From a virus: 20,316 nucleotides of DNA. The position numbers and the translations under genes were made by a program. The DNA is taken from IMG/VR virus record IMGVR_UViG_3300032240_000149, positions 1-20,316 of that record; one strand, 5' to 3'. Of this stretch, positions 1-6,244 are shown in pieces. Numbering within the stretch: the stretch's first letter is position 1; each line of letters opens with the position of its first letter. The notes beneath the pieces are model-generated. The model saw nothing but the letters and a program-made list of their open reading frames with translations. It ran no database searches and had not been told where the DNA came from.

Positions 1-309
1 ACCATTACAAAATACTTCAAATGTATTTGGTTTAATGCCACGAATTACTTTGTATTGTTTTTTGCCAATAGAAAACTCAATCTCAACCACACCTTGTTGT
101 TGATTGATGGAGTTTAATAGATTGGGCTTATTGATTTTACGAAATGGTTTACCAAACAAACCAAAGCACAAGGCATCCAACATAGTAGATTTACCCGCAC
201 CATTATTACCAATAACAAGTGTGTTTGGTGATTTGGTTAAGTCAAGTTCAGTAAAACTATTACCCGTAGAAAGTATATTCTTCCAACGGAGTTTTTGAAA
301 TATAATCAT
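1..309 (-). CDS. 46: gp46, recombination endonuclease ATPase subunit (partial, N-terminus only)
   Basis: This is the first 103 codons of a gene running off the left edge. The protein begins MIIFQKLRWKNIL and carries a Walker A motif GNNGAGKST at about residues 35-43, followed by LDALCFGLFGK. This is the N-terminal ABC/SMC-type ATPase half seen in Rad50, SbcC and T4 gp46. In T4, gp46 pairs with gp47 to resect double-strand ends for recombination-dependent replication and to help degrade host DNA. The start ATG overlaps the stop of the upstream cysteine-rich gene as ATGA, so translation is probably coupled. The coiled coils, zinc hook and C-terminal ATPase half lie outside the window. The partner gp47 lies one gene upstream, which supports the assignment. 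Confidence 0.93.
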   Translation of the reverse strand, partial: MIIFQKLRWKNILSTGNSFTELDLTKSPNTLVIGNNGAGKSTMLDALCFGLFGKPFRKINKPNLLNSINQQQGVVEIEFSIGKKQYKVIRGIKPNTFEVFCNG

Positions 310-575
310 TTACAATAAGTTTCTTTACATTTAACACAAGAAATATCCAATATTTTAACAACCTCCCAAATAGGAGTATTATCTGGTATTTCTAAATGTT
401 CACAACATTTATCTTTACAATTAAAGCAGTCTACGTTTCCATTTGCATCATAAACACATCTGGTAGTCTCACTACAAAACATTCCAGTTTCTCTATTAGG
501 AAAGCTTCGACAACAATTAAATCTAAACTCATATATTGAGCAAAGTTTATTTTCATCTAGATATGGACAAATCAT
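306..575 (-). CDS. Small cysteine-rich YkgJ-like putative metal-chelating protein between gp47 and gp46
   Basis: This 89-residue protein has 13 cysteines, at positions 3, 12, 21, 22, 34, 40, 50, 53, 57, 58, 80, 83 and 88. Residues 1-27 (CPYLDENKLCSIYEFRFNCC then RSFP) resemble the central block of the YkgJ / CxxCxxCC family of putative zinc- or iron-chelating proteins, which typically reads CPFL, C, IYE, RP, CR, P. The family's usual N-terminal cysteine block is absent, so this looks like a shortened relative. C50, C53, C57 and C58 form another tight cluster (CFNCKDKCC), and CVKC follows near the end. Both ends overlap the neighbours as ATGA (gp47 stop with this start, this stop with the gp46 start), so it is translated together with the gp47/gp46 nuclease pair. 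Metal or Fe-S binding is likely; any role with gp46/47 is inference. Confidence 0.8.
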   Translation of the reverse strand: MICPYLDENKLCSIYEFRFNCCRSFPNRETGMFCSETTRCVYDANGNVDCFNCKDKCCEHLEIPDNTPIWEVVKILDISCVKCKETYCK

Positions 576-1642
576 GCCTGCTCTAAGTTCAACGCCTCAA
601 CGTAAAGTTCTTTCATTACAGTTTTCAGCTTATCATTATTAATATGTTCTTCTTTGATACCATCCACAAAATGTTCAATAATCGTCATTGTGTCTTGTGC
701 TTGGTCTATTGTATCATCTTCTACACCTTCTGTCAAGTCTGTATGGTCCTCAACAATGGTAACATCAATTGGATTAATATTATAGATATTTTCCATAAGT
801 TTATCGAATAGAAAAGGATTAGTTTTATTGATGACCACTACTTTAATATAAGTGTTGGTATATTTTGTTAAATCTTTGTTGGTAATTTCGGTGATAGAAT
901 CTTTTTTGTCATCATAGGTAATACGGTGAAACATTATGTTCGGATTAGGTACAAACTCCAAATCATAAGTGTCAGTATCAAAAAGATGAAAGCCCCTAGT
1001 ATCACCGTAATCTTGCCAGGTAAGCTCGTAAGGGTTCCCAAGATAATTAATGTTATCTGAGCTAGACCGATGGTGGTAATGGCCAGAAAAGACCATATCA
1101 AATTTGCCAAAGATTTCACGATTCAATCCTCCTTCTGCCACCATTCCACGATGCATAACAAAACCATCAATTTCTAAATGCCCCATACAAAGTTTGGCAT
1201 CAGTTTCTTTTATTGTTGCCATCGATTCATCATAATTTTCAGGACAAATCCAAGGCAACATACAAATCTTTGTATCACCAACATAAATGATATCTGGTTT
1301 ATCAATTACAATAATGTTATTATATTCACCTAATAATAAGTCAACAGAGTTTACATCATTGGTATTTTTAAAATAGGTATCATGATTACCGGCCAACATA
1401 AACACGTTCATTTTATAATAAAACAATTTGTCAAAGAACATTTCTCTGGCACGTTTGTATGAATAAAAGTTTATGTATTTTCTACGGTCAAAGGTATCAC
1501 CAAGAATAAGAACGGTATCAATTTTTTCTTCTAATAGTTTAGGAAAAAAAGTTTCTTTATAAAACTTTTCATAGAAGTCCAAAAAATGGATTGAATCATT
1601 CCGAGCACCAAAATGTTGGTCTGTTATAATTGCTATTTTCAT
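572..1642 (-). CDS. 47: gp47, recombination endonuclease nuclease subunit (Mre11/SbcD-like)
   Basis: This 356-residue metallophosphoesterase is the nuclease partner of gp46. The calcineurin-type metal-binding motifs appear in order: DQH near residues 8-10, GDTFDRR at 48-54, GNHD at 85-88, GH at 154-155 and GHYH at 187-190. The segment LGNPYELTWQDYGDTRGFHL just after the last motif is typical of Mre11, SbcD and T4 gp47. The length is close to T4 gp47 (339 aa). By family knowledge it is a Mn-dependent exo/endonuclease acting at double-strand breaks in recombination-dependent replication. Its start follows the gp55 stop by 15 nt with no strong Shine-Dalgarno directly before it; a GGAG lies about 20 nt upstream. 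Its stop overlaps the next gene as ATGA. All visible catalytic residues are present, so it should be active. Confidence 0.95.
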   Translation of the reverse strand: MKIAIITDQHFGARNDSIHFLDFYEKFYKETFFPKLLEEKIDTVLILGDTFDRRKYINFYSYKRAREMFFDKLFYYKMNVFMLAGNHDTYFKNTNDVNSVDLLLGEYNNIIVIDKPDIIYVGDTKICMLPWICPENYDESMATIKETDAKLCMGHLEIDGFVMHRGMVAEGGLNREIFGKFDMVFSGHYHHRSSSDNINYLGNPYELTWQDYGDTRGFHLFDTDTYDLEFVPNPNIMFHRITYDDKKDSITEITNKDLTKYTNTYIKVVVINKTNPFLFDKLMENIYNINPIDVTIVEDHTDLTEGVEDDTIDQAQDTMTIIEHFVDGIKEEHINNDKLKTVMKELYVEALNLEQA

Positions 1643-5207: not shown

Positions 5208-5237
5208 ATTATAACATGACCTATGTTATCGTGTCAA
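5208..5237 (-). promoter_or_regulatory. Consensus sigma70-type promoter for the uvsY cluster
   Basis: On the minus strand, TTGACA (5237-5232) and TATAAT (5213-5208) are both perfect consensus hexamers separated by 18 bp. The start point would be near 5201, about 25 nt before the uvsY ATG. The -35 box overlaps the TGA stop of the upstream radical SAM gene. It differs from the late-type motifs, so this cluster is probably expressed early or in the middle period by host sigma70 polymerase. Timing is inference. Confidence 0.85.
5211..5229. repeat. Inverted repeat inside the uvsY promoter spacer
   Basis: The arms ATAACAT (5211-5217) and ATGTTAT (5223-5229) are perfect 7-bp inverted repeats around a 5-bp centre. 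They fill the spacer between the -35 and -10 boxes, with one arm partly overlapping the -10. This is the position expected of a repressor operator, but chance in AT-rich DNA cannot be excluded. Confidence 0.5.
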
Positions 5238-6244
5238 GGCGTAAGATAGTCATTTCTGTATTGTTCATAATATACATTAAATTTTCCACAATTCTTTTTA
5301 CAAACTTTTAATGGTGAAGTGGTCCATGTTTTTTCTATTTTATCAAAATACCCACTATCAAATATTTCAGATAATTTTTGTTTTTTTAAATTTGGCCAAA
5401 CACCTATAAGGTCCATATAATCAACTCTTGATAAATCAGTATGGCAATCATGTTCTATGTTTGTCCAACAACAAGGGTTAACTGTTCCTGTGGCACTTAT
5501 ATAAATTTGATTGGTTTTTTTAACCATACAATTAATAGTTGGTAATTGTTCTTGTTGTTCTTTTTGTTTTATAATTTTACCAATCATACCTTCACTTTTT
5601 TTTGTTGGGTATATAATATTGATTGGAGTTCCTTCATCATTTAAAACCTTTAACATACCAGTTGAATCAAATCGATTGGTATGTTTTGATTCAAATCTAA
5701 CAAATCCCAATTGCCGGCTTAATTTTTCACAATCATCTACTTGATGTTCATTGTGTTTAAAAACAAGCATTTCCCAATGTGCTTGACCACCAGATTTAAT
5801 AAAAGTTTTGGCGTTTTCAATAACTTTTTCCCAGTTGGTTCCAATTCTGTAAATGGAATGTGTATCACTTAATCCATCAAGAGCAAAATAAACATTAACA
5901 CCAAGTTTAGCTAAATCTGTCCACCATTGTGAGTTTCTTGCACTACCATTGGTGGACATATTTAATATTAAATTGTTGTTTGTTTCTCTTAAATATTTAA
6001 ATATTTCTAAAGTATCTTTAGCAATTATAGGATCTCCTAACCTACCACACATAGAAATATTGGTAAGTTGTTTAATAAAATCTGAAGAAAACCATTCTTT
6101 AAATTGTACTAAAGTGATTTCATCCAATTCAATATGCGGCCTAAGTTTACCTCCATGCCAGTTACGAGCACATTGTGGACATTTAGCTTGACATTTGGAA
6201 GTAGTTTCTAGATGCAATGATTTTATGTCTGATAATTTATACAT
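5234..6244 (-). CDS. Radical SAM protein with SPASM/twitch-like C-terminus
   Basis: This 336-residue protein has the radical SAM signature CxxxCxxC at C18, C22 and C25 (TSKCQAKCPQCAR), expected to bind the 4Fe-4S cluster that cleaves S-adenosylmethionine. A GRLGDP at 67-72 resembles the GGEP-type SAM-contact motif, and NMSTNGS and VYFALDGLSDTHSIYR fit later barrel strands. The C-terminal part has C239, C258-C259 (NPCCW), C267, C315 and C319 (CKKNC), which could bind an auxiliary cluster as in SPASM or twitch proteins. That group mostly modifies peptides or proteins, but the substrate here is unknown. It lies between a virion gene and the uvsY promoter, 14 nt after the preceding stop, with no clear Shine-Dalgarno. 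No precursor peptide gene is apparent beside it. It is not part of the T4 core; similar radical SAM genes have been reported in aquatic phages. Confidence 0.88.
   Translation of the reverse strand: MYKLSDIKSLHLETTSKCQAKCPQCARNWHGGKLRPHIELDEITLVQFKEWFSSDFIKQLTNISMCGRLGDPIIAKDTLEIFKYLRETNNNLILNMSTNGSARNSQWWTDLAKLGVNVYFALDGLSDTHSIYRIGTNWEKVIENAKTFIKSGGQAHWEMLVFKHNEHQVDDCEKLSRQLGFVRFESKHTNRFDSTGMLKVLNDEGTPINIIYPTKKSEGMIGKIIKQKEQQEQLPTINCMVKKTNQIYISATGTVNPCCWTNIEHDCHTDLSRVDYMDLIGVWPNLKKQKLSEIFDSGYFDKIEKTWTTSPLKVCKKNCGKFNVYYEQYRNDYLTP

Follow-up and report, generated by a model that had tools for sequence, protein, structure and literature searches.

The YkgJ or CxxCxxCC family (PF03692) is described as a putative zinc- or iron-chelating domain. 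The nearest measured protein to the one studied here is the flagellin lysine methyltransferase FliB (PMC8598068): it has a CX4CX3CC motif that its authors compare to PF03692, eight conserved cysteines and a bound, oxygen-sensitive [4Fe-4S] cluster. A two-piece tmRNA is reported for a marine phage (PMC9004378), and single permuted tmRNA spacers are reported to contain a tRNA gene or a repetitive element (PMC11915505). We found no description of protein genes in the spacers of phage permuted tmRNAs in the available text of the literature searched.

Here we analyse a small cysteine-rich gene, X, carried by 20,316 nucleotides of viral DNA (IMG/VR record IMGVR_UViG_3300032240_000149, positions 1 to 20,316; hereafter the window). 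We propose, with a probability of about 0.6, that X encodes a free-standing small metal-binding phage protein made of two swapped YkgJ/CxxCxxCC blocks, and that it is a mobile cargo gene inserted at the gp47/gp46 overlap or lost elsewhere.

Gene X and the gp47/gp46 junction

The beginning of the window holds the following features.

306–575, minus strand: gene X, 89 amino acids with 13 cysteines, probably a rearranged YkgJ-like protein (ORF translation, Pfam match, family alignment)
572–1642, minus strand: gp47, Mre11/SbcD-like nuclease subunit (Metallophos; PHROG SbcD-like)
1–309, minus strand: gp46, Rad50/SbcC-like subunit, of which the window, ending within the gene, contains the N-terminal part (AAA_23; PHROG SbcC-like)
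572–575, minus strand: ATGA overlap of the gp47 stop codon (574–572) with the X start codon (575–573), in the ATGATT copy at 570–575 (sequence, junction survey)
306–309, minus strand: ATGA overlap of the X stop codon (308–306) with the gp46 start codon (309–307), in the other ATGATT copy at 304–309 (sequence, junction survey)

The translation of X reads MICPYLDENKLCSIYEFRFNCCRSFPNRETGMFCSETTRCVYDANGNVDCFNCKDKCCEHLEIPDNTPIWEVVKILDISCVKCKETYCK. The sequence-only reading had described a cysteine-rich gene joined by ATGA to gp47 and gp46, and both its coordinates and its description hold. The reading frame is a real gene, because it has homologues in other viral contigs at 38–100% identity, 11 of its 13 cysteines are invariant, and dN/dS is low. 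This ratio is 0.04–0.21 in nine of 14 pairs, the other five being saturated, which shows purifying selection on the protein. Further along the window, a T4-like phage gene block contains a radical SAM protein with a SPASM Fe–S domain (5234–6244, minus strand). In a relative of the window's phage, 114 kb long, a peptide deformylase gene lies directly 3′ of gp46 (L002:5979–6551).

The two overlaps had suggested that X is coupled to the nuclease as an accessory factor, and one may picture an accessory or protective factor of gp46/gp47 that is co-synthesised with both subunits. The same pair of ATGA overlaps recurs at five further loci, and each of three cyanophages chosen from 60 listed likewise has a small gene at the gp47/gp46 place. 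A survey of the junction points the other way. Among the best 80 of 190 gp47 loci matched in IMG/VR, 76 junctions were readable and four were not; gp47 and gp46 overlap directly in 61 of the 76, X lies between them in five, and other, unrelated genes of 62–197 amino acids do so in ten. The arrangement gp47–X–gp46 is not generally kept by related phages, most of which have unrelated genes or none at this place: relatives whose gp47 is 93, 91 and 90% identical lack X, and others at 98 and 91% have it. The genes found there in other phages are themselves unrelated; the two cyanophage junction proteins scanned, from S-WAM1 and S-SM1, are DUF3110 (PF11360). Moreover, 21 of the 26 viral X loci lie away from gp47–gp46. 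A link to the nuclease is thus not supported, and we regard a role for X as a nuclease factor as very improbable.

Because X, DUF3110 and other unrelated genes, or no gene at all, occupy it, the junction is a landing site for small genes, X being one among several. In the window, X corresponds to a 266-bp segment between the two ATGATT copies. Unrelated small genes at this junction, mostly with start-stop overlaps, were also seen at L030, L031, L036, L038, L086 and L369–L371. The start of X overlaps the preceding gene in L013, L016, L105 and L008–L010 as it does with gp47; since this occurs behind unrelated genes, overlap with the preceding gene is a general habit of X. The position of X between gp47 and gp46 looks incidental, and ATGA coupling in phages is poor evidence of a shared complex.

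Order of the cysteine blocks

Three parts of X can be told apart.

498–569, minus strand: block B, residues 3–26, CPYLDENKLCSIYEFRFNCCRSFP, counterpart of the second half of PF03692 (profile positions 46–84; 24 columns, score 59.8)
402–428, minus strand: block A, residues 50–58, CFNCKDKCC (CX2CX3CC), probable counterpart of the first half, placed after block B (mainly the cysteine pattern)
312–338, minus strand: C-terminal tail, in which C80 and C83 do not vary but C88 does (family alignment)

In 15 aligned X sequences, 11 cysteines are invariant: C50, C53, C57 and C58 of block A, C3, C12, C21 and C22 of block B, C40, and two additional ones, C80 and C83.

PF03692 is the sole Pfam match of the window's X (E-value 4.8e-4), with residues 3–40 falling on profile positions 46–84 of 85. 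The score, 21.2 bits (22.3 in another run), lies under the curated cut-off of 23 bits, and the match is above this cut-off in eight of the 11 records with homologues. A profile search thus supports the earlier idea that the N-terminal part is related to YkgJ. The similarity is to the second half of the domain: X and most of its homologues align to the profile only from about position 34–46 onward. The second-block pattern C-P-x-L ... C-x-I-Y-x-x-R-P-x-x-C is present in X, the window copy having F in place of P (RFNCC). PHROGs and NCBIfam gave no match for X, nor did PDB, searched by sequence with the X profile; the same kind of PDB search with one canonical YkgJ protein returned two weak matches.

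Canonical block order can be read independently from Pfam coordinates. All 47 PF03692 matches listed from 40 bacterial genomes start at profile positions 1–4; therefore a CxxCxxCC block in front is the rule of the family. The sequence-only reading had taken this first block to be missing in X. It is indeed absent ahead of the second block, and a CX2CX3CC block sits behind it instead.

We compared X with two sets of canonical-order proteins: a mixed set of 12 sequences and a set of 15 L121-type sequences, the latter having the CX2CX3CC spacing in common with X. As the patterns used to choose both sets required the canonical order, that order is no evidence in itself. Against a single canonical copy, X aligns over 24 columns, in block B only, with scores of 59.8 (mixed) and 36.0 (L121). 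Against a doubled canonical profile, the alignment runs through the junction over 63 and 62 columns, with scores of 69.2 and 44.6, respectively. The real doubled score was reached by 1 of 200 shuffles of the second canonical copy when all columns took part, and by 3 of 200 when the cysteines were kept in place. Taken by itself, the C-terminal half of X aligns with the canonical first block, with scores of 20.7 (mixed) and 19.2 (L121). With all columns shuffled, these scores were reached by 0 of 200 and 1 of 200 shuffles, respectively; with the cysteine columns fixed, by 20 of 200 and 59 of 200. As cysteine-fixed shuffles often match the real score, the first-block assignment rests on the cysteine pattern.

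It is therefore conceivable, as a less probable reading, that nothing was rearranged and that a truncated YkgJ half acquired an unrelated C-terminal block resembling a zinc knuckle. The likeness of this block beyond cysteine spacing is not significant, and shuffling the residues of the C-terminal half of the window's X yields a CxxCx2-3CC pattern in 1.7% of cases. Yet every one of the 15 X family members has the pattern, the alignment to the doubled profile is continuous and in one piece, and a canonical-order family has the equal CX2CX3CC spacing in 15 of 15 L121-type loci (chosen, again, by an order-demanding pattern). We hence favour a rearrangement: X is probably a YkgJ-like domain with its two cysteine blocks swapped, possibly circularly permuted. 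This is probable and not firm because the homology of the first block depends mainly on the cysteine pattern. Accordingly named, X is not filed here as a plain member of PF03692; we treat it as a rearranged, probably circularly permuted YkgJ-like protein.

AlphaFold models of X from 15-row alignments reached a pLDDT of 53.0, or 41.1 with the L105 copy placed first, too low for a fold search. In a Gastranaerophilales MAG (L109:3428–4598), two canonical YkgJ genes stand side by side; fusion and trimming of such adjacent genes could yield a permuted order.

Genomic locations of X

The survey found 27 viral loci, from which L107 was dropped as a canonical YkgJ, leaving 26.

gp47–X–gp46: 5 of 26 (L002–L006)
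Inside a permuted tmRNA, between the acceptor piece and the 5′ piece (RF04321): 10 of 26 (L011, L012, L096–L101, L103, L104)
Probably inside a permuted tmRNA, with the same beginning, cut by the contig end: 2 of 26 (L102, L106)
Directly upstream of a permuted tmRNA: 2 of 26, divergent (L014, L015)
Overlapping a peroxiredoxin gene: 3 of 26 (L008–L010), with one more cut there (L007)
Elsewhere: 3 of 26 (L013, L016, L105)

These counts are not counts of independent events, several loci being near-identical or from the same phage (L002/L003, L004/L005, L007/L008, L009/L010, L011/L012, L014/L015, L096/L097, L099–L101 and L103/L104). With 21 of the 26 loci away from gp47–gp46, at several unrelated sites, X behaves as a mobile cargo gene, and its spread over such sites argues for a role that needs no fixed neighbour.

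Annotated phages in INPHARED gave no tblastn match at E-values up to 1 with three X family members as queries. One full-length bacterial X was found, in Mesorhizobium sp. Root554, by a search limited in the candidates scored per genome; under the same limit, X was absent from 296 other members of the order and 145 other members of the genus, and in 397 other members of the phylum the only matches were two partial ones covering the second block. The Mesorhizobium gene (L108:5001–5255) lies between a gcvP gene and a transporter gene, which we take to be SulP-like.

At the ten spacer loci, RF04321 is matched at 82.9–129 bits (gathering score, 47). The ATG of X follows the CCA by 11 bases, behind an AAGAGGT or AAAGGAA Shine-Dalgarno sequence. 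The window itself has no tRNA or tmRNA according to ARAGORN, and X there does not lie between tmRNA pieces. A tRNA next to X was considered and discarded as a spurious reading frame: ARAGORN gave only a tmRNA at L014/L015, which Rfam then identified as a permuted tmRNA.

Could X work with the phage tmRNA, being made from its precursor and acting in tmRNA processing or ribosome rescue? The ten spacer loci, the two probable ones and the two divergent loci immediately upstream of a permuted tmRNA would fit such a partnership, as would the open tag reading frames of these tmRNAs (for example ANDEQFALAA) and a TTGACA-17-TATAAT promoter ahead of five of the ten spacer loci. To see what else such spacers hold, we turn to a scan with one 33-base acceptor sequence, which gave at least 80 loci; both pieces were recognised in 73, with 57 distinct spacers. 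Among the distinct spacers listed, 21 of 57 have an ORF of at least 25 amino acids starting at most 40 bases after the CCA (5.9 expected from shuffles), 20 of these 21 with a Shine-Dalgarno-like sequence. X accounts for three of the 57 (L234, L244, L309). In 18 of the 21 ORF-bearing spacers listed, the genes are other, unrelated small ones, including a GNAT-like protein (L307) and several peptides of 25–56 amino acids; part of the short ORFs may be due to chance. This diversity weighs against a tmRNA partner. So do the 114-kb relative of the window's phage, which has X and no RF04321 match, and Mesorhizobium, where X and the tmRNA are some 270 kb apart. We judge the partnership unlikely. The same holds, at a similarly low probability, for a broader scenario: X as a block-swapped Fe–S protein housed mainly in permuted tmRNA spacers and functionally tied to trans-translation, one precursor RNA serving as both X mRNA and source of the two-piece tmRNA, with the window copy a secondary relocation of the cassette into the gp47/gp46 overlap.

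Gene-bearing spacers are scattered among L230–L309 (for instance L282, L289, L307 and L243), and an annotated Stenotrophomonas phage has a similar acceptor piece, with no informative annotation. Unrelated small phage proteins (L016, L105, L243, L282, L289, L307) share a similar start: MRINEI, MQINEI, MRIKEL, MRAREF or MKVSEL. Starts of the MRINEI type are reminiscent of the leader peptides that target proteins to the capsid and are cleaved by prohead proteases of the T4 type.

A second recurrent neighbour is peroxiredoxin. X overlaps its gene as TAATG in L008–L010, with a CMD-domain (AhpD-like) gene downstream, and in L011 and L012, where X sits inside the tmRNA, both genes follow a short way downstream of that tmRNA. 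This would suit a protein that assists a peroxiredoxin/AhpD-type module in redox chemistry or iron handling. Yet peroxiredoxin is present in only five of the 22 X-bearing records, where its absence, like that of a tmRNA, is weak evidence, the contigs being uncultured and often fragments; and X stands at one of the best 80 peroxiredoxin loci, which weakens the idea further. We consider it quite unlikely. Still, X is associated with tmRNA at 14 of the 26 loci (in two of which the arrangement differs) and repeatedly with peroxiredoxin, and either association could reflect a specific function and not neutral cargo.

Proposed mechanism and comparison with known systems

We return to the reading of X as a free-standing metal-binding protein encoded by a mobile cargo gene. 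Both YkgJ/CxxCxxCC cysteine blocks would be used in swapped order, by whatever route that order arose. By analogy with FliB, the ligand of X is most likely one [4Fe-4S] cluster or zinc; the metal would be held by the CX2CX3CC block, and the cysteines of the CPYL..LCSIY..R..CC block may help to hold it. The gene would settle where a transcript, and often translation too, is already supplied: either by overlapping its start with the stop of an upstream gene (gp47, peroxiredoxin or others) or by following closely on the CCA of a permuted tmRNA, where X brings its own Shine-Dalgarno sequence. Within the group of phages to which that of the window belongs, the 266-bp segment would have been inserted into an ATGATT at the gp47/gp46 overlap, giving ATGA on both sides, or else lost from the relatives without it; the direction, gain or loss, is our inference. 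Both the gp47/gp46 overlap and the tmRNA spacer act as landing places for small genes, and a widespread, poorly understood cysteine-cluster family gains a small, apparently rearranged member.

Among known systems, two blocks link the YkgJ/CxxCxxCC family to X: CX2CX2-3CC, and CPxL-x(5)-C-S/T-I-Y-x2-R-x2-C(C), where the profile similarity is strong. X differs in its swapped block order, its length of only 89 amino acids, the extra C80/C83 and a score under the Pfam cut-off. Canonical YkgJ proteins of the L121 type (Pseudomonadota, about 195 amino acids) have the same CX2CX3CC spacing and a C-x-x-L-D ... C-T-V-Y-x-x-R-P ... C block; unlike X, they carry block A in front, separated from block B by about 60 residues. 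FliB (PMC8598068) is a SAM-dependent enzyme, whereas X is small and stands alone, and the two are likened here through the published description of a cysteine motif. Lastly, small genes at core-gene junctions of T4-like phages, such as the cyanophage DUF3110 gene at gp47/gp46, match X in place, in similar length and in the overlap with gp47, but are unrelated to it in sequence.
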